Positions 617-13,082 of a stretch of DNA of 34,914 nt are shown piece after piece. The stretch is from a virus. The position numbers were made by a program, and so were the translations under genes. The first letter of the stretch is position 1. Every line of letters begins with the position of its first letter. The stretch covers positions 1-34,914 of IMG/VR virus record IMGVR_UViG_3300007765_000020; one strand, given 5' to 3'. The notes beneath the pieces were generated by a model that made no database searches, was not told the origin of the DNA, and saw only the letters and a list, made by a program, of their open reading frames with translations.

Positions 617-645
617 TTGACAAAATGGTCAGAGTCGGGTATAAT
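617..645 (+). promoter_or_regulatory. Consensus sigma70-type promoter (P1) for the plus-strand radical SAM operon
   Basis: TTGACA at 617-622 and TATAAT at 640-645 are separated by exactly 17 bases. The flanks (ATTCTTGACAAAATGGT and TATAATATAC) match the minus-strand promoters elsewhere in the window. It is the only plus-strand member of the family. The expected transcription start, about 7 bases past the -10 box, falls at 652-653, on the ATG of the next gene, so the mRNA would be leaderless. Confidence 0.9.
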
Positions 646-652
646 ATACCGT

Positions 653-2509
653 ATGACCAAATCAATTTCGTACATCAATTATAACCCCTTAGACAAAGGT
701 AAGGCTTTTCCCTATCTTTGGCTATCTTTTCAGGCTTATATACAAGATAATTATTCTGAGTCTAATTGGGTATGGAATGATGCTTTGAATTTTTCAGAGT
801 GTACTTTACAAACTATTTTAGATACTAAACCTGCACTAATACTTACGTCTTTATATACTTGGAACTACGATAAACTAGTAAAGTTTTTACAAGATGTAAA
901 AGAGAGTTTGCCTAATACTATAATTGTAGTAGGTGGGCCTCATCAAATGTATAAGGTAAATCCAGCTTGGTTTAAAGATCATCCATATATTGACTACGTT
1001 TGTAGAGAGGATGGATATGGGGAAGTTTTCTTAACAGAATTACTTAGAGCTTTAGACAATAATCTGAGTTTAGATACTGTACCTTTTTGTATTTATCCTA
1101 CAGAAAATAGATTAAATTATAAGGAATCTACTTCTGACTTCTATAAAAGAGATTTTAAGTGGCCTTCTAAAGTATTTGAAAGGTTTGCAGATAAGTTAGA
1201 TAATAATTATACTACTATATACTATGAAAGCTCTAGAGGCTGCCCCTATCGTTGTACTTATTGTGAATGGAGTGGTGGCACGGGAGCTAAAGTAAGTTTT
1301 AAACCTACTGAATTAATTCTAGAAGATGTTAAATTTATTTTAGATAATTTCGATTTAGAAGCTTTTGAGATTATAGATGCTAACTTCGGTATAATCCCTA
1401 GAGATGTAGAGATTATACAAGAAATTATATCCCGCAACCCTAACTTAAAAGTTAATGTAATGGGGCCAACAAAAACTAATTCGAAGTATTTGTTGGAAAT
1501 TTATAGATTATTAACTTCTTATGGTATGCTAGATACACAAACTATAGCTATACAAGAAACCAATTTAGAGGCTTTAAAGAATATAAAACGTAAAAATCTT
1601 CCTATTGAAGATCATATATCTATACATGAAGCTTTAACAAAAGAATTCCCTAATAATCATTTAGCGGAATTCGAATTAATTTTAGGATTACCTGGAGCAA
1701 CTCTAGAGTCTTTCTTTGATATATTTACTTTATGTAATAAATATCATATGGCGTACTCTAGGCATATTTGGAAGTTATTACCTACTACTCCTGCTGCTAG
1801 GCAAGATTATGTAGATAAATATAAGATAAAAACTTTAAATATTATATTACCAGAAGATAATACAAACTATCGTTTTAATGAGATAGGAACTGAAATACCT
1901 ATTAGTTCTGTAGATATTGTAGTAGAAACTTATAGTTATACTAAGGCAGAATGGACATCAATGTATTTAATCGACTGTATGGCTCAATCTTATTATAATA
2001 GTGATATATTGGATACACTAACACAGTATTTAGGTAGAGATATTATCAAAGATATTTACTATGATATTATCCCTAATTTAGGGGGTATTCAAACCGAATT
2101 ATTTAATATACTACTAAATCACACTAAAAATGTTGTTGAACTAGAAACTAGTAAAGACTTAAATAGGGTGGATATATCCTCAACTAAATTTAAGGTCCAA
2201 ATAGCTCCTAGTGCGCTATTTAGTTTGATAGTAATGATAAATCCAGCTAATTTTTTCTTAACTTTACATAAAGTATTGGATATTAAAGATTCCAAATTAC
2301 TAGACTTATGCCAATATTTAATACAACGAATAAAAGGTATAGATAGTAAAGATACTTTAGTATCTAAATATAAGTGGGAGGATAAAGCAATTTTTAAGGA
2401 TGGTTTATATATTTATAATGTAGTAGATTCTAAAACTTATACGCTTCAGGAATATTTTTCTAATATTATGACTAATTATACTGGAAGTAAGTTAGAGGTA
2501 TTAAAGTGA
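653..2509 (+). CDS. Radical SAM enzyme with N-terminal cobalamin-binding-like domain
   Basis: The protein has 618 residues. Residues about 50-155 look like a B12-binding Rossmann-type domain (IIVVGGPH, then DYVCREDGYGE). The radical SAM core carries CPYRCTYC with cluster ligands Cys197, Cys201 and Cys204. The long C-terminal part (about 420-618) matches nothing I know and has no SPASM cysteines. Cobalamin-dependent radical SAM enzymes commonly methylate unreactive carbons or rearrange natural products; no reaction can be assigned here. The ATG at 653 is preferred because an upstream in-frame TTG at 617 is part of the promoter. There is no Shine-Dalgarno site, and the mRNA should start at or next to this ATG. 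The stop overlaps the next GTG (GTGA). It is the first gene of a four-gene overlapping operon and probably acts with the proteins that follow. Confidence 0.85.
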   Translation: MTKSISYINYNPLDKGKAFPYLWLSFQAYIQDNYSESNWVWNDALNFSECTLQTILDTKPALILTSLYTWNYDKLVKFLQDVKESLPNTIIVVGGPHQMYKVNPAWFKDHPYIDYVCREDGYGEVFLTELLRALDNNLSLDTVPFCIYPTENRLNYKESTSDFYKRDFKWPSKVFERFADKLDNNYTTIYYESSRGCPYRCTYCEWSGGTGAKVSFKPTELILEDVKFILDNFDLEAFEIIDANFGIIPRDVEIIQEIISRNPNLKVNVMGPTKTNSKYLLEIYRLLTSYGMLDTQTIAIQETNLEALKNIKRKNLPIEDHISIHEALTKEFPNNHLAEFELILGLPGATLESFFDIFTLCNKYHMAYSRHIWKLLPTTPAARQDYVDKYKIKTLNIILPEDNTNYRFNEIGTEIPISSVDIVVETYSYTKAEWTSMYLIDCMAQSYYNSDILDTLTQYLGRDIIKDIYYDIIPNLGGIQTELFNILLNHTKNVVELETSKDLNRVDISSTKFKVQIAPSALFSLIVMINPANFFLTLHKVLDIKDSKLLDLCQYLIQRIKGIDSKDTLVSKYKWEDKAIFKDGLYIYNVVDSKTYTLQEYFSNIMTNYTGSKLEVLK

Positions 2510-3213
2510 AAGTTCCTAAGTTTAATTTAACTACATTTGCTCTTGTTCACCAAGAACTTAATAATATACCTTTTAAAAAGTATAGTCTATTATCAGAATC
2601 TCATAATAATAATTTAATAGGCTTAGAAGGGAGTTTAGAGGTTGCTCCTATATTAGGAGATTATATTTGTTTAAACGAACCTAATACTACTTTTATTGAT
2701 ATAAATTATTATTTTATTATTTATGATTACTTAAAAAGTACTCACAGAGAGCAAGATATAGAGGAATACTTTAAATTAATTGATTGGAATTTTAAAGACT
2801 TCCAGTTATTTATAGATAGATTACAAGGTAGAGGCACAGGTTCAGATGATTTATTAAATGGATTTGATGTTAATATCTTATGTGAATTACATAGTAAGAT
2901 TATATACCCTTACATAATAAAGCCTATTTTAATAGATAATAGAGATAATATAAAGGGAGATATTATAGTTGCTTTACCTGCAGGAACTCCTTTTAGAGGA
3001 GCTATTTGGGTAGAAGCAGATGAAAAAATAATAGAAAACTATTATTTAGCTATGAAAACTTTAACCCCCAGATTGCCCCCATATATTATTCAAAGTAGGG
3101 AATTCGCCCAACAGTTAAATATTTTAACTTATATAGGGCAGTCAAAATATACCTTAACTTTAGATAATACTAAAGAGGTAGTTGATTTAATAAAGGAGAA
3201 ATTAAATGGGTAG
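2506..3213 (+). CDS. Unknown protein, partner of the radical SAM cassette
   Basis: This 235-residue protein matches no family I recognise. It begins at GTG (GTGA overlap with the radical SAM gene) and its end overlaps the next ATG by 8 bases, so it is embedded in the operon. No signal peptide, membrane helix or cysteine pair is obvious; it is acidic and rich in Asn, Ile and Tyr. The hydrophobic middle (about 60-75, INYYFIIYDYL) looks like a buried strand. By position it could be a leader-binding or scaffold partner of the radical SAM enzyme, or a virion protein. That is inference from gene order only. Confidence 0.7.
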   Translation: MKVPKFNLTTFALVHQELNNIPFKKYSLLSESHNNNLIGLEGSLEVAPILGDYICLNEPNTTFIDINYYFIIYDYLKSTHREQDIEEYFKLIDWNFKDFQLFIDRLQGRGTGSDDLLNGFDVNILCELHSKIIYPYIIKPILIDNRDNIKGDIIVALPAGTPFRGAIWVEADEKIIENYYLAMKTLTPRLPPYIIQSREFAQQLNILTYIGQSKYTLTLDNTKEVVDLIKEKLNG

Positions 3214-3610
3214 TGCTCAAAGAACTGTTAATCCTAATAGCGTTACATTCCCTTCTGGAGGAGATGCAGCTATTAACTCTACCAATGTTAATGATTTAAA
3301 TACTAAATTTAGTCCTGGTAACAGTGTAGAAGCAGGACATATTAATAAGCTAAGGAGTATGTTAAATAATGCTTTAGCTCATTATCATAACTATACTGAT
3401 AGGTATAGTTCTAAAACTTATGGTAATACAGGACATAGCGGAAACAGAGAAGAATCTAAAAATACTGGAAGCCCTAATTCCAAACCAGGAGACGTAACCG
3501 CAGTAAGTATTGGAGAAGTTATCGAGGCTTCTAGATTTAATCAATACGCTAATGTAGCTAGGTTTATTCACTCACATAAACATACAATTAACGATAGGAC
3601 GGCACAATAA
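3206..3610 (+). CDS. Small HxH-repeat protein, candidate fibre-tip protein or modification substrate
   Basis: This 134-residue protein is rich in Ser, Asn, Gly and His. It holds two copies of a loose motif: a short helix with Asn, about 12 residues, then HxHxxxxD. The copies are HYHNYTD near residue 60 and HKHTIND near residue 127. Between them is a Gly/Ser/Asn-rich, disordered-looking stretch. HxH motifs of this kind bind iron in trimeric phage fibre and spike tips such as T4 gp37, so a metal-binding virion protein is a reasonable reading. The ATG lies inside the end of the previous gene and the stop overlaps the next start (TAATG). It may be a structural protein acted on by the adjacent radical SAM enzymes; there is no direct evidence. 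Confidence 0.65.
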   Translation: MGSAQRTVNPNSVTFPSGGDAAINSTNVNDLNTKFSPGNSVEAGHINKLRSMLNNALAHYHNYTDRYSSKTYGNTGHSGNREESKNTGSPNSKPGDVTAVSIGEVIEASRFNQYANVARFIHSHKHTINDRTAQ

Positions 3611-3816
3611 TGGGATCAGAAAACGTTTCAACTCATACAACTTCTAATACTGGCCCTAGTGATACTTCTTCGGGTAATACTATTGATGCAAATAAGTATG
3701 AACAAATGGTTGCGGTATTAAATAATTTAATATCTCACAACCACTCATTCTATGACGATTATACTACTGTATGCGATTGTCAATGTCAATGCGACTGTGG
3801 TAGAGGAGCTTTATAG
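3610..3816 (+). CDS. 68-aa HxH protein with C-terminal CxCxCxCxC tail, candidate RiPP-like substrate
   Basis: The first half is Ser/Thr/Asn-rich. Residues about 25-50 repeat the helix-HxH motif of the upstream protein (ANKYEQM...SHNHSFYDD). The last 15 residues are VCDCQCQCDCGRGAL, with five cysteines alternating with Asp or Gln. All cysteines in the protein lie in this tail, like a core region behind a leader. A Cys-rich C-terminus next to SPASM-type radical SAM enzymes recalls sactipeptide and ranthipeptide precursors. Alternatively the tail and HxH motif may bind metal at a fibre tip. The start overlaps the previous stop by one base. The last 31 bases overlap, on the opposite strand, the end of a radical SAM gene. 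The substrate role is inference. Confidence 0.65.
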   Translation: MGSENVSTHTTSNTGPSDTSSGNTIDANKYEQMVAVLNNLISHNHSFYDDYTTVCDCQCQCDCGRGAL

Positions 3817-5066
3817 CATCTCTCTCCAAATAATAAAGCAAAAGCGCCTAATTGTATAGCGCCATACCAAATCTTCTCTGCCCTACAATTTTTTAAGAAA
3901 GTTTTACTTGGAAAGTTGATAGGGCAAGAACTTTTACAGAGTCTCTTCACAGAGCAATTCCCACAATGACTTATTTTCTTAGTCAAATCCATTCCCCCCA
4001 CTTCAAAACTATTTAAAGATGTAATATTTCCACTAATATACTCTGTATGTGGACATAATCTAATATTTCCTTGAGTGTCTAAAGATAACACATCTTTAGC
4101 ATCTGCTCCACAATTGGAAGTCATTGTAATAGGTATAATACTACGCATTAACTGCGCATACTTAATACTTCCCGCACTCCCATTAAATATATTAGACTGT
4201 AAGATAGGTAAAGATTTACTTAAGCCCTCTTCTTTTAGTTGTCTAATACATTTATCTATGTAGTCATTACATAATTCTTCGAATCCTTGTAAGTCTTCGA
4301 CTACGCAATCAAAACTATTTTTAGAGTCAGTTTTATCATAACTTCTACCTAAAGTGAAACTTAAAGTAGTATTTTTTAATCCTAACTCTCTGACAAACTT
4401 ATAAAAGAAAGCATTTATCTTAAATAAGTTCCAATTAGTATTACTAATAACCGTATTAAATGAGAATTGAACTTTAGGGTATAAATTGTCCAGTTGTTTT
4501 AGTACTTTTTGTATATGAGGCTTATTTAATATTTCTTCCCCTCTAAGGGCTTCTTGCCCAGGTCCATCATGACTAATACCTAAAGCTATTGTAGCTTTTA
4601 AAGTTTTAAAGAAGTCTATATGTTTCTGTCTTAAAGGTGAGCCATTGGTAGATATAAAAAAGTGCAGACCTTCTTTATCTAATTGAGTCATTACTTCTTT
4701 AATATCATTCCAGTATAGAAAAGGCTCTCCTCCCCACAATTCTACTCGTTCCAAATTATCTAAGTTTAATAGTTTTACATTGTTAATAAAAGAGTCTATA
4801 TGAATACTTTTAGCTCTTTCATTAGGATTGCCAATATCTTTTTGCATACAATAACTACAAGAATAATTACAAGCATGCCCAAATAAGATTCTTAAAGCTA
4901 CTGGATTTCTAGTCTTAATAATAGTATTATGATTTTTAGCTAAATCTTTATAATCAATCTCTGGGTCTTGTGGAGCACTAATTAGCTCTTTTTTATTATT
5001 ATACATAGAATTATTACTACTATCATAATAAAATTCTATACCACTTTCGGTTATAAACTTATTCAT
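3786..5066 (-). CDS. Radical SAM/SPASM peptide-maturase-type enzyme
   Basis: The protein has 426 residues. The radical SAM motif CNYSCSYC gives Cys66, Cys70 and Cys73, and WGGEPFLYW is the SAM-binding GGE motif. The C-terminal third has a full SPASM-like set: CGAD, GNIRLC, then CGNCSVKRLCKSSC and a final NC, seven cysteines suited to two auxiliary 4Fe-4S clusters. This layout is typical of anSME and of RiPP maturases that make thioether, carbon-carbon or epimerised products. The start follows TGGAGAAAAA and overlaps the preceding stop (ATGA). Its 3' end overlaps the Cys-rich small gene on the plus strand by 31 bases, and no terminator separates them. The substrate is unknown; that small protein or its neighbour is the nearest candidate. 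Confidence 0.88.
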   Translation of the reverse strand: MNKFITESGIEFYYDSSNNSMYNNKKELISAPQDPEIDYKDLAKNHNTIIKTRNPVALRILFGHACNYSCSYCMQKDIGNPNERAKSIHIDSFINNVKLLNLDNLERVELWGGEPFLYWNDIKEVMTQLDKEGLHFFISTNGSPLRQKHIDFFKTLKATIALGISHDGPGQEALRGEEILNKPHIQKVLKQLDNLYPKVQFSFNTVISNTNWNLFKINAFFYKFVRELGLKNTTLSFTLGRSYDKTDSKNSFDCVVEDLQGFEELCNDYIDKCIRQLKEEGLSKSLPILQSNIFNGSAGSIKYAQLMRSIIPITMTSNCGADAKDVLSLDTQGNIRLCPHTEYISGNITSLNSFEVGGMDLTKKISHCGNCSVKRLCKSSCPINFPSKTFLKNCRAEKIWYGAIQLGAFALLFGERCYKAPLPQSH

Positions 5067-6106
5067 TTTTTCTCCATAATAGATACTATCGTATCTCCTT
5101 CCTTATACAAGCCTTGTGGTACTCTAATCCAACCTCTATCTATTAATTTAGCACAAAATTTAGAGTATGAAGGTAACATAACTCCAGGTATAAAGTTAAA
5201 AGGATAATTAACTTTATAGTTTAAAGTAGTGTTAATATAATCTGTAAAGTCTAATTTTACCCATTTTTTATAAATTTCTTGCTTTCCTTTAATTAAGTCA
5301 TAACAAAACTGTTCTGGGTTAAACTCATTCTTAATAATATGGAAAGGTTTAACTCCAAAGTCTGACGCAGCGTCATTAGAGAAATAGAACCTATCATAAT
5401 AAAAATGAGGAGCTGTTGTCGAACCTCTACTATTAGCATATAGATGTACTACTTCACCGTCTTTAGTAGAAATCCAATCACTTTGTTCAGTAGCCCACTC
5501 ATCTAAAACTTGTGCTCTTTCATCTCTAAAATCATGATGGGCTATAATATCTATGTTTAATTTTTTCGCAAAATCAGCAAAAGGTTGTAGATTTTTGGAT
5601 TTTTCGCTAGTTGTATTTATAAGTTTGAAGTGTTTTATAGGGGAAATTGATTGAATTTTATTTAAGATTTTAAGTAATTTATTAGTATTTATTTTATCTA
5701 CAAAGGTAGAAGAAATAGTTATAGATCCCATACTTTTAAACTGTACTTCATCAATAATCCTATGATACCTTATAATAGCGTTATCCGTAATACAATACTC
5801 TAGTTTGCTAGCGTTATCTTTGAACCAATTATATGCTTCAGGGTACTCCTTTTTATAGTAGTAAATATCATCATCTGTCCTAATAACTGAAAAGTAATCG
5901 AATACTGAATCCCATAACTTAATTATTTTTGAAGATATCGGAGGGTAAACTCCTGTAGTATTATGAACTATATCTAATTGATCTTTAATATAACATACCT
6001 CACAATTTGCTGCGCAATAGTATCTTCTACCTACTGAGAAGTATAGGTCATACTCTAATGATTTAAGGGTATCATAATTTACCCATTGCTCCTCATATTT
6101 ATTCAT
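5063..6106 (-). CDS. Divergent radical SAM enzyme without SPASM domain
   Basis: The protein has 347 residues with CAANCEVC near the N-terminus (Cys31, Cys35, Cys38), matching CxxxCxxC. The canonical GGE motif is not visible and there is no C-terminal cysteine cluster; the remaining cysteines (EYC, QFC, KFC) are scattered. This is a minimal, divergent family member. It overlaps both neighbours by ATGA and so is made together with the other radical SAM proteins. The missing auxiliary-cluster domain suggests a different reaction or a partner role beside the SPASM enzymes. I cannot name a closer family. The three-cysteine motif is clear; the product is unknown. Confidence 0.72.
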   Translation of the reverse strand: MNKYEEQWVNYDTLKSLEYDLYFSVGRRYYCAANCEVCYIKDQLDIVHNTTGVYPPISSKIIKLWDSVFDYFSVIRTDDDIYYYKKEYPEAYNWFKDNASKLEYCITDNAIIRYHRIIDEVQFKSMGSITISSTFVDKINTNKLLKILNKIQSISPIKHFKLINTTSEKSKNLQPFADFAKKLNIDIIAHHDFRDERAQVLDEWATEQSDWISTKDGEVVHLYANSRGSTTAPHFYYDRFYFSNDAASDFGVKPFHIIKNEFNPEQFCYDLIKGKQEIYKKWVKLDFTDYINTTLNYKVNYPFNFIPGVMLPSYSKFCAKLIDRGWIRVPQGLYKEGDTIVSIMEKK

Positions 6107-7251
6107 TTTTTTATCTCAAAATTTTCTGAAATTCCCACTAATTCTAATAAATTTTTGTGAGTTTTTAGTTGCGTTAAATGTAGTGTTACAAAGTCAATAA
6201 TTTGATAGAACTGCACACAAGAGCCTTCTGGTTTAACATCAAATAGGAAATATAAGTATTTCAATCCACAAGACGCCCGTGAAGGACATTCTAAACAATC
6301 TTTTCTTATCTTGTCATCGTCGCCCTCACTATCCCATATCTTGGGTTCACTATTATCCCATTTACCTATACGAGCATAATCGGTCTTATACTCAAGGAAA
6401 TCGAACTCCGGATATATGAAGCCGTTCGGCGCAAGGATTAACTTACTGTGTCCATTGAAATAAGCTTTATCGATATTATGATATTGCCCATCAATAAATA
6501 CGTTTAATTTCTTAATATAGAGAATTTGGACAAATTCCATAAAAGCATCAAGAAATTGTGGTAAGTTAATTTTATCAATAATTACATCAAATTTGTCCTT
6601 CCCTCGATGGTGTCTTAGTGGGATAAGATTAATTGTTTTACACCCTGTCGCATAGCAGGTTTTAGTTATAGCACTAAGATTCTTAAAGGATAAAGAGTCT
6701 GGTTTATCAATAGGCATAACATACTGAAACTTCCACTCTGAGCAGTGCTTATTTAAAACTTCGCTCATTTCTATAACATTAGGTAAGTCTGACTCACATA
6801 CATCTATACAATTACATTCTCCACACTTAATACCATTAGGAGCTTTCTTTACTCTATTAATACCCTGATACATAAAATCGTAACTGACTGTTGCAGTTAG
6901 TAGCCCAGAATATTGCTCAAAAAAGTCCTCATTCTTCTTTACTAGTGAGCCGTTAGTTGTGAACGATATTTTCCAATCGTTGCGCGCCGCGATAGCGGCC
7001 AACCACTGCATTGCTCGTTTAATTTTAGGCATAAATAAAAAGGGTTCCCCTCCGTGGAAAGAAACCCTCTTTATTTGATTCTCCTGCTTTTCAGCCCAAA
7101 GAAAGAACTCTTCCATTCTATCGACTTCATCGATTTGAAGAGTTCTCCCTCCGATCTTGTTCTCAATATATTGCCTATCACAATAAACGCAATCAAAATT
7201 GCATTTATTGCCTAGGTATATAATGACTAATTCTACATTTTTAAGGCTCAT
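6103..7251 (-). CDS. Radical SAM enzyme with partial SPASM-like C-terminus
   Basis: The protein has 382 residues with CNFDCVYC (Cys17, Cys21, Cys24) right at the N-terminus and SFHGGEPFLF as the GGE motif. An insertion near residue 145 carries CGECNCIDVC, which could hold an extra cluster or zinc. The C-terminus has CLECPSRASCGLKYL and a later GSC, a shortened SPASM or twitch pattern. It overlaps the upstream gene by 11 bases and the downstream gene by ATGA. Codon use is richer in G+C than in its neighbours (for example the GC-rich run around 6980-7005), which suggests a separate origin. By family resemblance it is a peptide-modifying or anSME-like enzyme. Confidence 0.85.
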   Translation of the reverse strand: MSLKNVELVIIYLGNKCNFDCVYCDRQYIENKIGGRTLQIDEVDRMEEFFLWAEKQENQIKRVSFHGGEPFLFMPKIKRAMQWLAAIAARNDWKISFTTNGSLVKKNEDFFEQYSGLLTATVSYDFMYQGINRVKKAPNGIKCGECNCIDVCESDLPNVIEMSEVLNKHCSEWKFQYVMPIDKPDSLSFKNLSAITKTCYATGCKTINLIPLRHHRGKDKFDVIIDKINLPQFLDAFMEFVQILYIKKLNVFIDGQYHNIDKAYFNGHSKLILAPNGFIYPEFDFLEYKTDYARIGKWDNSEPKIWDSEGDDDKIRKDCLECPSRASCGLKYLYFLFDVKPEGSCVQFYQIIDFVTLHLTQLKTHKNLLELVGISENFEIKK

Positions 7252-8902
7252 GAGTAAACATCGTTGTAAAAGCGTTAGCTGTTGGTACTAAGATAACGAA
7301 ATGTAATAGGGTTAAATAAAACACTCTACTATAATCCTCATCAGATACCATTAGTTTATAAGGAGCGTCAGGGTTGGCGATATAGTAAATAGTTGATATA
7401 TTTACAGCATCACTACTCTTAGTATTATTAAGAAAATTTATAAAACCATCGGGAGTAGGAACTTTTAGCTTCTTATTAATAATATCATTCCATAATCCTG
7501 CAATTTCCATATGATTAGCAGTTAACCCTTTATGCACTTGTTGTGTAGTAGGGTGATATTTATATAGATAATAGAATAATAAATAACTCAATCCTTTAGC
7601 TAAAGCAATATCTCCTTCCTTAGCTAGAGCAGCTTCGATTCTCTTTCTTTTAACATCGAACTGTTTTCTAGACATATCTTCGTGTAGCTGAATATAAAGT
7701 TTAACAATATTCTGACACATATCATCAGGACGGAATAGCTTTCCGTCTACATCTAAATTACCTGCAGGACATTGATAGCATAAACTTTTATAGTTACAAG
7801 ACTTACACTGATCTTCTTCTTCAAACATTGCTAGATATGCATCTTGGAAAATTTTATATCTATTCTTGTATAAAGTATCATCAAAAATATTTCCTAGTAT
7901 AGCAATATCTGCTCCATTATCTTTTAGATTAGTAAAGAAGTGGCATCCAGAAATATCTCCAGAAGCATCAATTGCTAACATATCTGAACCTATTAAACAG
8001 TTATTTTCCTCTTTTTTGCCAACTCCCTCTGAAAATTGGAATATAAGATCATCATATTTATCTAAGATATTAGTTATATCCTCGTAAAGTTTATTCCAAG
8101 TATCTTTATTCCATTGAATAAATCCTCTACCTGAATCTAATACTAAAGGATGTAGTACCATATGTTTAACTCCGCGCTTATGAATTTCTTCTGCGAAGTC
8201 TAATAGATGTGGTAGGTGTTCTTCTGCTAAAGTGGTTCTGACTACTACTCTATGTTGGTCTTTAATCTCTTGTGGGATATAAGAAATAAAATTAAGAATT
8301 TTATTTAAGTCCTCTTGCCCTATTTGTCTATGATCTAAATCAGCTTCAATAGTATCTAAAGATATAACTAAAGAAGTCCCTTCATAAGAGAAATATTCAT
8401 CGATAAATTCCTCTGTTAGTAAAACTCCATTAGTACATACTGAAACCGCAGTACTAAATTGTCCTCTAGAATTTTCAGCGATTTCATCTTTATACTTAGC
8501 TAAAAAGTCTAGTATTAGTTTTTTATGGATTAAAGGCTCGCCTCCAAATAATTGGAAGTTTTTAGTTTGTTGAGTTCCTTTAAGTCTAGCTAAGAACTTA
8601 TATACTTTGTATAATTTATCTACTGTAAACTTACCGAAATCTTTATTATGTTGCTCATAACAATAAGTACAAGATAAATTACAGGCATTTGTTAGAATTA
8701 CATTAATTTGATGTAAGTCTTTAAATAACTGTAAATTATACTTTAAAGTAACTGGAGTTTCCGGTGAGGGAACCTTTGCTAAAGTATTTAGTTTGGAACT
8801 TCCAAATGGGGTAATAATATTTTCAGTAGTAAACTCTAAATTACCTATATTATCTACTAATACTGTTGCTGCGTGGTTTTTTACCCTTTCTTCTCTACTC
8901 AT
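7241..8902 (-). CDS. Large radical SAM/SPASM enzyme with extra C-terminal domain
   Basis: The protein has 553 residues. After about 60 N-terminal residues of unclear fold, CNLSCTYC gives Cys74, Cys78 and Cys81, followed by LFGGEPLI. The SPASM region (about 300-390) shows CLIGSDMLAIDASGDISGC and then CKSCNYKSLCYQC and a later MC, matching anaerobic sulfatase-maturase-like enzymes. A helical C-terminal extension (about 395-553) without cysteines is unusual and may bind substrate or a partner. The ATG overlaps the end of nrdB (ATGA), so this four-gene set is transcribed as a continuation of the nucleotide-metabolism operon. No sulfatase gene is nearby, so a sulfatase-maturing role is not supported by context. 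Confidence 0.87.
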   Translation of the reverse strand: MSREERVKNHAATVLVDNIGNLEFTTENIITPFGSSKLNTLAKVPSPETPVTLKYNLQLFKDLHQINVILTNACNLSCTYCYEQHNKDFGKFTVDKLYKVYKFLARLKGTQQTKNFQLFGGEPLIHKKLILDFLAKYKDEIAENSRGQFSTAVSVCTNGVLLTEEFIDEYFSYEGTSLVISLDTIEADLDHRQIGQEDLNKILNFISYIPQEIKDQHRVVVRTTLAEEHLPHLLDFAEEIHKRGVKHMVLHPLVLDSGRGFIQWNKDTWNKLYEDITNILDKYDDLIFQFSEGVGKKEENNCLIGSDMLAIDASGDISGCHFFTNLKDNGADIAILGNIFDDTLYKNRYKIFQDAYLAMFEEEDQCKSCNYKSLCYQCPAGNLDVDGKLFRPDDMCQNIVKLYIQLHEDMSRKQFDVKRKRIEAALAKEGDIALAKGLSYLLFYYLYKYHPTTQQVHKGLTANHMEIAGLWNDIINKKLKVPTPDGFINFLNNTKSSDAVNISTIYYIANPDAPYKLMVSDEDYSRVFYLTLLHFVILVPTANAFTTMFTHEP

Positions 8903-10083
8903 AGGTCGTCCAAATCAAATTCTTCATCTACTGAATTATCAATAGCTGCTACATAGTTTACAGACTCAATCTCTTGAGGAGCAGACTTAATATGACTACT
9001 ATCTAAATAATTATCTACCCAAGGAAGAGGATTGTTTCCTAGTGTTAGCCCTAATCTGGAAGGGTCAAGTCCAATATTAGTGATACGAACAGCAAAAATA
9101 TAATCCATATACTCTTTAAGAATTGCAGCGTTCATACCAATAAGTGGAGATCCTTTACTAAATAGAAACTCAATCCATTCCATTTCTTCATTATATGCAG
9201 TTTGGTACATATCATAAGTTTCATCTTCCAAGTCAGCAGCAACTCTAGTAAACCCTTCACTAGGGTCTTCTCTAAGCATTTTAATCACTCGTTGGAATAC
9301 ATCTAAGTGAATCATCTCATCTCTAGCGATTAACTTAAAGATATTACTAGACCCAGGCATTAATTTATCAGGTTGTTCACTGAAGCTCCAAGCTGTTACG
9401 AAGGTTGCAAAGAATCTAATACCTTCAAACATATTAAGTACTAAAGCAGCTTTAAATATTGCTTCTTTAACTACTCGCTCATCTATTTCTGGAAAAGGCA
9501 CTAGTAATGTACCATCCATTGAAGAAGCTCCATTATCTCTAGCAATTCTATTAGCATCCATCTTATCAAATACAGAGGTCGCCCAATCAAATGCTGCTAA
9601 GATACTGGTTGCTCGTTTCTGAATATGTTCGTCATCAATTATAGATTCGATGAATACGTCCACATCATTATATATAGCACGAACCATCTCAGTATAAGAC
9701 TCACTATGCAAAAGTTCGTTATTTTGGTGGTTTGTAATGTATAACTCCCACTCAGGATTATTACTAATGCCACCATTATTAAAAAGCTGTAAGGGAGCAC
9801 GCCCTGCACAGCTATCAAGAGTAATAGCAAACTTAAGCCCAGATTCATAGATGTGCTTGCCAGCTTCATCCAGACTGTCGAAGTGTACCTTTTCTTTAGA
9901 TAAGTCGATTTCATTTTTACTCCAATTACCTATGGCTCGCATTTCTTCTGCAAATTCCATAATCCAAGGGTACTTTGGGTCGTGATAAGTTTGAATATTT
10001 CGGTTACAAGAATCCTCACCTAGAAATAGTCTAGTTCTTTTACTATTTACTGTTTCGCCTAAGTTAAAAATCTTACAACTCAT
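8899..10083 (-). CDS. nrdB: Ribonucleotide reductase class Ia, small (radical) subunit
   Basis: The protein has 394 residues and houses the di-iron tyrosyl radical that NrdA needs to reduce ribonucleoside diphosphates. Iron ligands match E. coli NrdB: Asp90, Glu123, His126, then Glu in FEGIRFF and Glu/His in ARDEMIH. Tyr130 in HSESYT corresponds to radical Tyr122. The C-terminus ends EEFDLDDL, the usual tail that docks on NrdA. I start at the ATG at 10083: GGAGG lies just upstream and ATGA overlaps the thyX stop. A longer in-frame reading from 10128 would run through thyX. It supplies deoxynucleotides for phage replication with thyX and nrdA. Confidence 0.95.
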   Translation of the reverse strand: MSCKIFNLGETVNSKRTRLFLGEDSCNRNIQTYHDPKYPWIMEFAEEMRAIGNWSKNEIDLSKEKVHFDSLDEAGKHIYESGLKFAITLDSCAGRAPLQLFNNGGISNNPEWELYITNHQNNELLHSESYTEMVRAIYNDVDVFIESIIDDEHIQKRATSILAAFDWATSVFDKMDANRIARDNGASSMDGTLLVPFPEIDERVVKEAIFKAALVLNMFEGIRFFATFVTAWSFSEQPDKLMPGSSNIFKLIARDEMIHLDVFQRVIKMLREDPSEGFTRVAADLEDETYDMYQTAYNEEMEWIEFLFSKGSPLIGMNAAILKEYMDYIFAVRITNIGLDPSRLGLTLGNNPLPWVDNYLDSSHIKSAPQEIESVNYVAAIDNSVDEEFDLDDL

Positions 10084-10793
10084 AATGCCTCCATAAGAGG
10101 GAATATCCCTGCGATTACTTGTGCACATTTTTGTGCAATTTCCATATGCTCCAATTGAGTACCATTAGCACTTCTGAGTTCAATATAGTGTACCCAACTT
10201 CTAAGAGTGCCATTCATATACATTCTGCTCATTGTACACCCTTCTGGCAGTACAGAACGAGCCTGCTCTTTAGCAATTCCATTGTCTATAGCAAACTGAT
10301 AAGCCTTTTTAGCTTCTTTAATTACTTTCTCTTGTTGGATTCTCCACATAGCTGAAAGTTTCTCATCATCTACTTTAATAGAATTTTGTCTATTTTTTGT
10401 GTCTTGCAGTCTAGCTTCACGCAACATAAATTCCATATCCTTAGTAGGATCTGCATAACGCTGACTAAATTCTTGAAAGCTAAAACTTCTATGGCGAAGA
10501 ATCTGTCTTCCAATATCCCTAGTAGTTTCGATTTCCAAGCAAGCAGACACAGTTTCCAAAGGAGACCAATGCTTATGCTTAATAAGATACTTAATTAATT
10601 TTTCAGAAGTTTCTTTATTTAGCTGGTTACTTGGATTCGATACTCTAGCACAATACGCAATTAAATCTTGTACATTTTCTAACCCTAGACCTTCCATTTC
10701 TGTGGAAGGCATTGAGTATGAAATTAGTCTAACTTTACTAGTTGTATCCCCTGTATATAGGCTTTCTTGTTTATTAATTGTTTTAGTTTCCAT
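10080..10793 (-). CDS. thyX: FAD-dependent thymidylate synthase
   Basis: The protein has 237 residues and makes dTMP from dUMP using methylene-tetrahydrofolate and FAD/NADPH. The diagnostic ThyX motif RHRx7S is present as RHRSFSFQEFS (Arg100 to Ser110), and the C-terminal part keeps LRSWVHYIELR, typical of the substrate-binding end. The start follows TAAGGAAT. It lies between nrdA (9 bases upstream) and nrdB (4-base overlap), forming a compact nucleotide synthesis cluster. Length and motif order fit the family with nothing missing. Confidence 0.96.
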   Translation of the reverse strand: METKTINKQESLYTGDTTSKVRLISYSMPSTEMEGLGLENVQDLIAYCARVSNPSNQLNKETSEKLIKYLIKHKHWSPLETVSACLEIETTRDIGRQILRHRSFSFQEFSQRYADPTKDMEFMLREARLQDTKNRQNSIKVDDEKLSAMWRIQQEKVIKEAKKAYQFAIDNGIAKEQARSVLPEGCTMSRMYMNGTLRSWVHYIELRSANGTQLEHMEIAQKCAQVIAGIFPLMEAL

Positions 10794-10802
10794 TATTATT
10801 CC

Positions 10803-13082
10803 TTAAATACTACAAGCGCCGCTTTCACAGCCCTCGATAATTGTTTCACTTTTATTCTCTTTGTCTTTGGTTCTAATATAGTATAAACTCTTTAAACCAT
10901 ACTTCCAGGCAGTAAATATATCTCGTTTAACTCTATTAGCGTCTAAAATTTTATTAGGCATTTTTGTTAAGTCATACCATTGGTTGGTACTCATACCTTG
11001 ATCTATAAACTTCTGTAAGATAGCCATTAATTTTAAATACTCAGCAGAGTTATTTTCAGGCAACTCCCAAGATTTCATATAATAAGGTTCTTTATCAAAG
11101 TCAGGTACTAAAGATTTAACTGTGAAATTAGAAGCTTCAAAAGTATCAGTAGTAGACTGAATTGGGTCAATTCCTTGTGTTGAGTTACTAACTAAAGAAC
11201 TACTAGCAGTTGGAGGAATAGCACTAAGTGCCATATTTCTGATTCCATACTTTCTAGCTTTGATTCTTAATAAATCCCAATCACATAATAACTCATCTGG
11301 GTAAATTTGATCTATATTAGTATTATAGGTATCTACAGGCATAACTCCTCTAGAGTATGCACTTCTGTCTGAATACTCACAAGCTCCACGCTCCTCTGCA
11401 AGATTAATAGAAGCTCTAATAAGTCCAAATTGGAAGCGTTCCGCCCACTCATGAGTTAAACGCTTCGCCTTTGTTGTGCCAAGTACAGCTTCATTCTTAG
11501 CTAAGAAATGTGCGAAATCACTAATTCCAATACCTAAGAAACGATAACCTTTTGTAGGCCATTCTGCTGCATCTAATGGGTAGTTTTGAACATCAATAAG
11601 ATTATCTAAGAACCTTACCATAATTTCTGTCAACCCATCTAATTCGTGTATATCTTCTAGTTTACCAAAGTTTACGCACCCAAGAATACATAAACTAATC
11701 ATTCCATTATCTAAATTATACCCATCTACATCAATAAACTCATTTTGGCGAAGTCCTTCAAATTTCATCTCCTTTGTAGGTAAGAAAATCTCACTACAAA
11801 GGTTAGTTTGAGTTACTGGTTCATCAAATAAGCCTTGATTATTAACGTTATCAATAAAATGTATGTAAATACGCCCAGTGCCAACCCGTTCTTTAACGAG
11901 TTTATTAAACATTTCATTAGCGGGCAAGGTCTTTTTTCTAATCCCACTCTTTCTTTCGTAAGCTTCATAAGATTCCTTAAATTTAACAGGATCCCCATAG
12001 TGCTCAAATAGTTGTGGAACATCCTCGGAACTAAAAAGTGTAAAGTCCTGCTTCTTTAGCACTCTTTCGAAGAAGATGTTTGGGATGCCTATAGAGTAAT
12101 CAATAAATCTAGCACGGTTAGTATTAGAACCTTGATTATTTTTATACTCTAAAATATCCATAATTTCCCAATTAAATATTGGGTAGTTTACTACTGTCGC
12201 TCCAGTACGCAAACTATTTTGTGTAAATTGTTTACTAGCGGCCTCTACTGCTTTTAGTAATGGAAGTGCTCCAGTATGTTTTACTGTATTACTTTTAACT
12301 GGAGCAAGTATACCTCGTACTGGCCCCATATCTACTCCAATACCTGCCCTATTAGCAGTCATTAGAGATAATGCATATTCTGAAGATAGGATAGACTCTG
12401 AAGTATCCCCCACCTTAATTTTACAACAAGAGCTAAACATTTTAAGTTTAGTTCTAACTCCACTAATAATTGGAGTAGGTAAACTAATCTTATCATCTTT
12501 TAGAGCCATATAAAAGTCTCTAATATAAATCATACGGTGTTCTTCTTCTGCGAAGATAACCATAGGAATTAACATAAAGGTTTCTTGAATCATCTCTAAA
12601 CGACGATCTGTTTTAGCATCTTTAATTAAATACTTACTATCCATCTGTACAATTGAAGAATATGGGCGATGTAGGTCATTCTCATAATCTAACAAATCGC
12701 CTAAAATTTCAATTTCTTCATCTGAGTAGTATTCTAAAATTTCTGGGTCGTATAACCCATGCTCTACATTCAAATGTATATAGTCCAAGAATGGTAGAGG
12801 TTCGAAACTACCATATACTTCTTTTCGCATTTCAGTTACTAATAGTCTAGCTGCGAAAATAGAGTAATCAGGAGTTTTGGTAGTAATTTTTTCAGCAGCA
12901 GACTTAATAATTGTTTGTTGAATATCAGAGGTAGACATACCTTCCGCAAATTTAATATGAGCATTAATTGCGGTATCTGATACTGAAACGTCTAAGTCAT
13001 CACGCTTGCAGGCTTCTAACATTCTATGAATGTTATCAATATTAAGTTCTTCTAGTTTTCCATTCCTTTTCTTAATTAGCAC
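10803..13082 (-). CDS. nrdA: Ribonucleotide reductase class Ia, large (catalytic) subunit
   Basis: The protein has 759 residues, about the length of E. coli NrdA (761). Residues 1-90 form an ATP-cone (LIKKRNGKLEEL...), the allosteric activity domain. Active-site cysteines are seen in SSCCKI, TNLCSEI and LGCVNF. The C-terminus GCESGACSI has the swinging pair Cys752/Cys757 that passes electrons from thioredoxin or glutaredoxin; no such donor gene is visible here, so a host donor is likely. The start is GTG at 13082, with AGGGGGG about 8 bases upstream, and it overlaps the exonuclease gene by 11 bases. Confidence 0.96.
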   Translation of the reverse strand: MLIKKRNGKLEELNIDNIHRMLEACKRDDLDVSVSDTAINAHIKFAEGMSTSDIQQTIIKSAAEKITTKTPDYSIFAARLLVTEMRKEVYGSFEPLPFLDYIHLNVEHGLYDPEILEYYSDEEIEILGDLLDYENDLHRPYSSIVQMDSKYLIKDAKTDRRLEMIQETFMLIPMVIFAEEEHRMIYIRDFYMALKDDKISLPTPIISGVRTKLKMFSSCCKIKVGDTSESILSSEYALSLMTANRAGIGVDMGPVRGILAPVKSNTVKHTGALPLLKAVEAASKQFTQNSLRTGATVVNYPIFNWEIMDILEYKNNQGSNTNRARFIDYSIGIPNIFFERVLKKQDFTLFSSEDVPQLFEHYGDPVKFKESYEAYERKSGIRKKTLPANEMFNKLVKERVGTGRIYIHFIDNVNNQGLFDEPVTQTNLCSEIFLPTKEMKFEGLRQNEFIDVDGYNLDNGMISLCILGCVNFGKLEDIHELDGLTEIMVRFLDNLIDVQNYPLDAAEWPTKGYRFLGIGISDFAHFLAKNEAVLGTTKAKRLTHEWAERFQFGLIRASINLAEERGACEYSDRSAYSRGVMPVDTYNTNIDQIYPDELLCDWDLLRIKARKYGIRNMALSAIPPTASSSLVSNSTQGIDPIQSTTDTFEASNFTVKSLVPDFDKEPYYMKSWELPENNSAEYLKLMAILQKFIDQGMSTNQWYDLTKMPNKILDANRVKRDIFTAWKYGLKSLYYIRTKDKENKSETIIEGCESGACSI

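Follow-up and report, generated by a model that had tools for sequence, protein, structure and literature searches.

What could occupy five radical S-adenosylmethionine (SAM) enzymes encoded side by side in one phage locus? The question is raised by a viral record of IMG/VR, IMGVR_UViG_3300007765_000020, of which positions 1 to 34,914 (34,914 nucleotides) form the window analysed here, and specifically by positions 617-8902, where eight overlapping genes are arranged in two convergent groups. An initial annotation had described this locus as five radical SAM genes next to small proteins and had read it as a dedicated peptide or protein modification pathway. Comparison with other viral contigs points, with a probability that we put at about three in four, to a phage cassette of SPASM-type radical SAM enzymes that acts as a maturation system for a C-terminal cysteine array on tail-tip proteins.

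The candidate substrate lies on the plus strand. The gene HxH2 (3610-3816) encodes a protein of 68 amino acids, the probable substrate and tail-tip protein, in which a HxHxxxD module is followed by the C-terminal sequence CDCQCQCDCGRGAL; the part encoded at 3772-3813, with a cysteine at every second position and an RGAL end, is the predicted modification site. Directly upstream, HxH1 (3206-3610, plus strand) encodes 134 amino acids with two HxHxxxD repeats and no cysteine, and is the probable partner of HxH2. Four enzyme genes occupy the minus strand: R4 (3786-5066), R3 (5063-6106), R2 (6103-7251) and R1 (7241-8902). The 3' ends of HxH2 and R4 share 31 bases, and all neighbouring genes of the locus overlap by 1-31 bases, so that the overlaps first noted in the initial annotation were confirmed by coordinates. 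The fifth enzyme, a B12-binding radical SAM protein, is encoded at 653-2509 on the plus strand.

For four of the five enzymes, the family assigned in the initial annotation stood up to searches with curated models. The CxxxCxxC motif and a Pfam match to PF04055 above cut-off place R1, R2, R4 and the B12 enzyme in the radical SAM superfamily. R3 (phrog_36229) had no Pfam match at E≤0.1, and its profile comparison with R2 gave no usable match (3% probability); its CxxxCxxC motif is kept in 16 of 16 aligned relatives, and the first six matches of its AlphaFold model (predicted local distance difference test score, pLDDT, 88.4) in the PDB were radical SAM chains (MoaA, SuiB) at template modelling scores of 0.31-0.41, a distant likeness with E≤0.001 for the first of the six only. 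By motif and model, R3 is thus taken as a putative, divergent radical SAM enzyme with distant matches. In R1, C74/C78/C81 and seven later cysteines (C302, 320, 366, 369, 375, 378 and 396) are invariant in 17 sequences, and in R4, C66/C70/C73 and likewise seven (C319, 338, 368, 371, 377, 381 and 394) in 16 sequences, which is the number of about seven C-terminal cysteines expected of SPASM enzymes; at least two enzymes with full SPASM-type cysteines had been predicted. R2 has four later invariant cysteines in 16 sequences, short of the SPASM pattern. The SPASM model PF13186 scored 19.0 bits on R1, under its cut-off of 21.5, and was not listed for R4. The B12 enzyme, predicted to be of cobalamin type, showed both features of that group (PF04055 42.6 bits; B12-binding PF02310 33.2 bits against a cut-off of 32.1); its best NCBIfam model was KedN5 (126 bits, far under the cut-off of 700), and none of the 20 NCBIfam models listed reached its cut-off.

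The nearest NCBIfam models of R1 were PapB (119.1 bits), QhpD (87.9), nif11-type (81) and SCIFF (73) maturases, and R1 profile positions 78-392 matched PDB entry 5wgg (E 3.5e-21), which we take to be CteB. These scores fall short of the PapB cut-off of 340 bits (NF047865; R1 119.1, R4 56.9, R2 40.8, and 55.1 for the R4-like enzyme of locus L124) and of the QhpD cut-off of 453 bits (TIGR03906; R1 87.9, R4 38.6, R2 37.4), so that the bond type is drawn from a distant analogy, in the sense of "works like" and not of "is a". At E≤1e-8, 19 R4-like members matched the models for viperin (19/19), PapB (18), sulfatase maturase (18), QhpD (17) and geopeptide maturase (17), and family evidence by itself picks no chemistry for R4. 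Three other roles were considered and set aside: a QueE-like or nucleotide role (QueE-like PHROG 26-39 bits versus 98-162 for phrog_1802, to which R4 matches at 144 bits), a viperin role (a partial match to the radical SAM core, with the NCBIfam cut-off unreached) and a role as defence genes (PADLOC on six proteins gave matches to pVip and PDC-M51A only).

Conservation of the gene set was examined in other contigs, cited here by L numbers. A search with R1 matched 27 viral contigs, and an alignment of 17 R1 proteins then brought 63, of which the 57 with an R1 profile score >200 were counted and six (L080-L085, score ≤200) dropped; the counted set includes near-duplicates, for example L016/L028, L026/L029, L071-L073 and L005/this phage. 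The cassette profiles were trained on rows from L007-L027, so that L040 and later contigs lie outside the training set. HxH1 was found in 54 of the 57 contigs and HxH2 likewise in 54; the three contigs that lack both, L006, L057 and L076, break off at a contig edge. All four of R1-R4 were present together in 47/57: 43 in the plain order R1-R2-R3-R4, two in the same order but with one gene split (L022, L052), one likewise with an extra R1-like gene before R4 (L058), and L005. R1-R4 share one strand in all R1 contigs. Of the ten contigs with an incomplete set, nine are truncated at their end; the tenth, L078, carries an R2-R1 fusion of 758 amino acids (5037-7313; R2 profile on residues 30-389, 223 bits, and R1 profile on 378-751, 387 bits), and no R3 or R4 was found in its available DNA. 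A search from the HxH2 side gave a similar picture, with R1 in 33 of 34 contigs matched by the HxH2 alignment; the other, L100, ends 84 bases after HxH2.

These counts modify the initial annotation in several ways. It had proposed that the same gene set be sought in other phage contigs, and that enzymes occurring without the small proteins, or scattered to unrelated settings, would speak against a shared pathway; the gene set recurs, and the small proteins were missing only at contig edges. The five-enzyme set holds as a unit for R1-R4, but the B12 enzyme, detected in 12 of the 57 R1 contigs, is optional. The two convergent operons are present here, yet they are a special layout: among the 57, HxH genes and R1 are otherwise found on opposite strands only in L005 (a near-identical phage) and L078. 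The claim that the enzymes act together on the small proteins is supported by the linkage as far as a common pathway goes, but HxH1 of this phage is without cysteine and is more likely a partner, which leaves the cysteine tail of HxH2 as the likely substrate on sequence grounds.

HxH2 relatives share a simple plan. In 17 aligned sequences, H43, H45, D49, C59, C61, C63, R65 and G66 are invariant, giving HxHxxxD and a C-terminal CxCxC-x-RG, with an extra inserted residue in one row. The array is present in 43 of 44 distinct HxH2 C-termini, with three cysteines in 8, four in 4, five in 28 and six in 3; in most cases a single residue, RG and a short hydrophobic terminus come after it. Over the 43 arrays, the spacer x was N (57), Q (46), A (22), E (16), D (13) or T (1); judged from these sequences, the array varies in length from three to six cysteines while its spacer grammar stays constant. 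The exception is the HxH2 relative of L080, a 543-kb contig with two R4-like and three R1-like enzymes, which has a different, altered Cys-rich tail; since the tail changed where the enzyme set changed, this contig was counted in favour of the enzyme-tail link. In L078, the HxH2 array (gene at 9793-10416) is interrupted by an insert that looks intein-like by eye and has no Pfam match. In HxH1, H59, H61, D65, H124, H126 and D130 are invariant in 18 aligned sequences. The structure model of HxH1 (pLDDT 84.9) matched a protein of Ralstonia phage RP12 (125 amino acids, E 3.2e-7); the HxH1 of L074, a contig with HxH1, HxH2 and R1-R4, is also 125 amino acids long.

Arrays of the same kind were then found on larger proteins. 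When R4 of the cassette in L061 was searched against 50,697 named phage records (tblastn), three records were matched, Achromobacter phage JWF (twice) and phage 2-1, and both phages encode, two genes ahead of the R4-like gene, a fibre that contains a CNCDCNC array. The fibre of JWF (gp28) reads NCNCDCNCNCSC and that of phage 2-1 NCNCDCNCSC, in each case with a Hint domain directly after (PF05203, 47.5 bits, in JWF gp28, the only fibre tested). Cleavage by the Hint domain would leave the array as the C-terminus of the fibre in both phages. The annotators of JWF (record NC_029075) noted gp28 as T4 gp36-like.

Viral contigs were also scanned at the DNA level for CxCxCxCxC with x = N, K, D, E, H or Q, which gave at least 120 loci. 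In the first 80, tested with cassette profiles built without DNA-scan loci, 27 matched, and R4 was the sole winning profile in 22 of the 27. With A7, a profile of R4-like enzymes built partly from the same DNA-scan loci, an R4-like enzyme was found in 32 of 44 loci with a terminal array versus 4 of 76 others (120 loci; Fisher test, 5e-15). The 12 terminal arrays without an enzyme were kept in this count, and include at least five low-complexity frames by eye (L146, L159, L190, L192, L236) and two on loci of 2.0-2.5 kb. In the reverse direction, the best 80 of at least 567 confirmed A7 relatives were examined: 58 of these 80 loci have an open reading frame (ORF) ending within 25 residues of CxCxCxC, against 0/80 in a reversed-sequence control, and the array ORF is upstream of the enzyme on the same strand in every row listed (repeats excluded). 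The spacers here were N (79), D (31), A (17) and 17 others. Fourteen of the 22 misses have <2.5 kb upstream, three end in a three-Cys array (L264, L283, L322), and in L280 an array stands before a Hint-like sequence. In most other phages with such CNC tips that were examined, only R4-like enzymes were detected.

The setting of these arrays points to the tail. Tail-fibre PHROG matches were obtained for three of six array-bearing proteins tested (L124, L141 and JWF gp28), and the L141 protein is collagen-like. The cassettes themselves sit among tail-fibre-like genes by eye; of three such genes submitted to Pfam, one (L007) was a fibre with an S74 chaperone and two had no match. Fibre ends with the same array type beside R4-like enzymes are a wider context than that covered by the initial annotation. 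On this genomic basis, the case for an enzyme-substrate link appears strong and that for a tail location good, the latter from the tail-fibre context of relatives; in this phage itself, a virion location of HxH2 is suggested by analogy. Two further Cys-rich proteins were encountered. In L173, a Gly-rich protein (335-709) carries CQCQCQC in its N-terminal part and is encoded near a close relative of R4 (profile score 440), and gp162 of Erwinia phage EarlPhillipIV (L245, 7086-7472), of 128 amino acids and rich in C-x-x-x-C repeats, lies a few genes upstream of the radical SAM genes gp158 and gp157 and is possibly a second array type.

Beyond the observed gene content, conservation, enzyme-array pairing and tail-fibre context in relatives, a mechanism may be proposed as follows. 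HxH2 would be a small tail-tip protein in which a HxHxxxD module is followed by (C-x)n-C, mostly closed by RG and a hydrophobic end, and HxH1, with its two modules, would be its structural partner. During infection, R1-R4 would act jointly on the HxH2 array, cleaving SAM at [4Fe-4S] clusters, abstracting hydrogen from residues of the tail and joining these residues to cysteine sulphurs. The proposal of R4 as the core enzyme for the array rests on most other CNC-tip phages, in which no enzymes but R4-like ones were detected; the B12 enzyme and, in other phages, DUF3050 proteins and further enzymes would supply optional tailoring steps. By analogy to the PapB, QhpD and SCIFF maturases, the most likely products would be thioethers that link cysteine sulphur to the side chain of a neighbouring Asn, Asp, Gln or Glu residue. 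Thioether bonds to Asn (in NxxcA) and to Asp (in freyrasin) are known (PMC8326336), which would suit x = N or D. The predicted outcome is a stiff, redox-proof C-terminal tip for the adsorption apparatus, on a protein with HxH modules. Whether such maturation forms an undescribed and widespread class in virions, in which Cys-array tips are cross-linked into a peptide needle or knot by R4-like enzymes and of which the four-enzyme cassette would be the most elaborate form, is in our view an even bet.

Several observations weigh against this interpretation. Ala fills about one in seven of the x positions of HxH2 arrays, which a Cys-Asn or Cys-Asp bond does not explain, and the frequent Gln is not explained by it either. 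None of the enzymes passes a curated NCBIfam cut-off among the matches listed, and the best NCBIfam model of R4 is viperin, which also matches more of the R4-like members than PapB does. No array was found in four R4-like loci (L268, L286, L312, L321) that have 4 kb or more of upstream sequence. The enzymes of the best 80 are 55-100% identical to the query and A7 is partly self-derived, so that the counts overstate independence. The other three of the six array-bearing proteins (L144, L168, L195) had no PHROG match, HxH2 carries no tail annotation (HxH1 and HxH2 were assigned only to phrog_31780, of unknown function), and HxH1 has no fold match in the PDB. Protein X (about 311 amino acids), present in 33 of 34 cassette loci, was not found in this window. 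Finally, a contig of a Bdellovibrio metagenome-assembled genome (MAG; L040, L115, L116) carries HxH1, HxH2, X, R1-R4 and an additional R3-like gene in surroundings that look chromosomal (by eye, genes resembling those of prepilins and of lipid enzymes), so that the tail may not be the sole setting. R1 at E≤1e-60 was sought in 368 genomes of the phylum of this MAG, with at most three candidates per genome scored, and was found in none besides that MAG among the matches listed; the cassette may have been gained recently or domesticated, or the contig may be mis-binned.

Other explanations were weighed against the same evidence. HxH2 might be the precursor of a true ribosomally synthesised and post-translationally modified peptide (RiPP), modified, cut and released as a bacteriocin, signal or cofactor. 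A small precursor with a conserved Cys core beside a maturase is what HxH2 and the enzymes present, the layout of an N-terminal module and a C-terminal Cys core next to SPASM-type maturases is precursor-like, several of the nearest named relatives are RiPP maturases, and the Bdellovibrio copy looks chromosomal. We nevertheless consider this reading unlikely: no peptidase or exporter was recognised among the gene clusters that four or more of the 34 loci have in common (a check by eye, with no scan of whole clusters), and in other phages similar arrays stand at the end of full-length proteins, including tail fibres. It is also improbable that the CxC tip and the HxH modules are iron or zinc sites that the enzymes assemble or modify with sulphur, with no cross-link formed. 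The invariance of HxHxxxD and CxCxC would fit such sites, and HxH motifs hold iron in the tip of the T4 gp37 fibre; however, a length varying between three and six cysteines and an x limited to N/Q/A/E/D are more like a repeated modification target, and some of the nearest relatives of R1 and of the R4-like enzymes belong to families that form S-C bonds.

A role of the enzymes in viperin-type nucleotide chemistry, acting on the host or its defences, seems close to negligible in probability. It would be suggested by pVip models matching R1, R2 and R4 at 48-69 bits (PADLOC) and by the viperin model being both the best for R4 (66.8 bits) and common to all 19 R4-like members; but the match spans part of the radical SAM core only and stays under the NCBIfam cut-off of 180 bits (NF038283), R1 and R4 hold seven further conserved cysteines, and the constant neighbours are small Cys-tailed proteins. 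That the enzymes serve metabolism or host takeover independently of the small proteins is very improbable as well. In this phage, R1-R4 directly follow nrdA-thyX-nrdB on the minus strand, with R1 overlapping nrdB by 4 bases, and the authors of the Campylobacter phage genomes proposed metabolic fitness (PMC2853527), but HxH1 and HxH2 are linked to R1 in 54 of 57 contigs each, and within the available DNA no contigs but L005 and L006, both near-identical to this phage, showed the nrd/thyX neighbours. The maturation of a tail-tip cysteine array thus remains our preferred reading.

The carriers of the cassette are varied and comprise T4-like, T5-like and probably phiKZ-like phages. Among 17 viral records searched, T4-type gp23 turned up in 8 (the variant L080 included), and a ninth match was left out because it lies on a different MAG contig than the cassette. 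Other carriers are the 379-kb L061, jumbo contigs and, from an Ewingella americana assembly, a contig of 253 kb on which PAAR-like and baseplate-like genes were noted by eye. The Ewingella-assembly contig also encodes an S-adenosylmethionine synthetase (L120, 2275-3549), and its R1 (L042, 9614-11704) has a long N-terminal extension rich in Cys and Gly. Near the cassette, 19 of 34 loci have a DUF3050 gene cluster (assigned by a Pfam search with one member), and RP12 ORF80, near the radical SAM genes of that phage, is called MgoB in the printed description. The stretch between HxH1 and HxH2 (L008, 5209-8730; L016, 5877-8659) holds a ketoacyl synthase gene (by Pfam in L008, with a similar-looking gene in L016) and a gene that by eye resembles a hotdog dehydratase (no Pfam match); together these genes possibly supply a lipid step.

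Against the named phages, R1 produced no more than weak matches (21-29% identity), 14 for the protein of this phage and 11 for that of L042, one of them Thermus phage phiLo, in which no array was found in the 12.5 kb scanned; no match was obtained for two R3 proteins (tblastn, E≤1e-5) or for HxH1 (tblastn, E≤0.01). When plasmids were searched with an R4-like enzyme, 19 weak matches came up, many of them carrying the annotation HxsB. The B12 enzyme has relatives (27-28% identity) in L033-L038, where they belong to another gene cluster, in which no HxH1 or HxH2 was detected.

The remainder of the window gives the cassette its setting. A sigma-70 promoter motif, TTGACA-17-TATAAT, lies on the plus strand at 617-645, 7 bases before ATG 653, and is the only site with 12/12 matches among the 45 found in a scan, a total that equals that expected from shuffling (mean 44.6). 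The listed ORF of the B12 enzyme begins at TTG 617 (617-2509), which is the -35 box of this promoter; ATG 653 was therefore taken as the probable start, and the transcript of the plus operon is likely leaderless. Between this gene and HxH1, a protein of 235 amino acids (2506-3213, plus strand) has no convincing family match in Pfam, PHROGs or NCBIfam and no detectable relation to protein X of other cassettes. The nucleotide-metabolism genes nrdB, thyX and nrdA occupy 8899-13082 on the minus strand (nrdA by PHROGs; nrdB and thyX from sequence by eye). The record further carries SbcC/SbcD, a D5-like regulator, a split NAD-dependent ligase, DNA polymerase, a DnaB-like helicase and primase, and by this gene content looks like a fragment of a lytic T5-like phage.

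If the preferred reading is true, oxygen-sensitive radical chemistry builds a part of the virus that touches the host, a kind of virion modification of which no report was found in searches of open-licence PubMed Central (PMC) papers. It would assign a role to the small partner phrog_31780 and to a large phage radical SAM family (phrog_1802, phrog_36229) whose genes have so far been labelled unknown, metabolic or sulfatase-maturating. It would also offer peptide engineering a natural set of short, gene-encoded Cys arrays of varied length with matched enzymes, and a testable tie between tail-tip chemistry and adsorption in isolated phages.

Among known systems, the prokaryotic viperins (pVip) resemble the cassette enzymes in the radical SAM core and differ in gene context and in a curated cut-off that the cassette enzymes do not reach; to our knowledge, viperins have no SPASM domain. 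A high number of radical SAM genes is shared with Campylobacter phages CP220 and CPt10, which according to PMC2853527 have 11 and 12, so that the initial view of the count here as far beyond that of other phages does not hold; for Burkholderia phage S13, three radical SAM proteins are listed in print. Unlike the cassette loci, CP220 has no CxCxCxC ORF in the 24.5-kb stretch scanned, and the role proposed for its enzymes and those of CPt10 was metabolic. In the Ralstonia jumbo phages RP12 and RP31, PMC5468394 lists ORF76 (radical SAM), ORF77 (Fe-S oxidoreductase), ORF79 (MoaA-like) and ORF80 (MgoB), which, judged by gene order, appear to be the same cassette, published there as separate functions in a phiKZ-related genome. 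A link between phage radical SAM enzymes and tail proteins was sought in open-licence PMC papers, with preprints outside the scope, and none was found. Closest in their arrays are Achromobacter phages JWF (NC_029075) and 2-1 (OQ974181), where the R4-like gene (gp30 in JWF) follows the array-bearing fibre (gp28); these phages have one enzyme only, annotated merely as radical SAM or anaerobic sulfatase-maturating, and their array is on the fibre itself, followed by the Hint domain. Closest in chemistry would be the maturases of the ranthipeptide, SCIFF and QhpD type, which share the radical SAM core and SPASM-type cysteines of R1 and R4, include PapB and QhpD, which score best among named families for R1 and are often matched by R4-like enzymes, and act on Cys-rich targets with Asp or Asn neighbours. 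The scores obtained here are far under the curated cut-offs of these families, no transporter or peptidase was recognised by eye, up to four enzymes would be involved, and the predicted target is a phage protein with a cysteine at every second residue of its C-terminus. Protein maturation by radical SAM enzymes is a known process, for which the array of the phage tail tip would be a new target.

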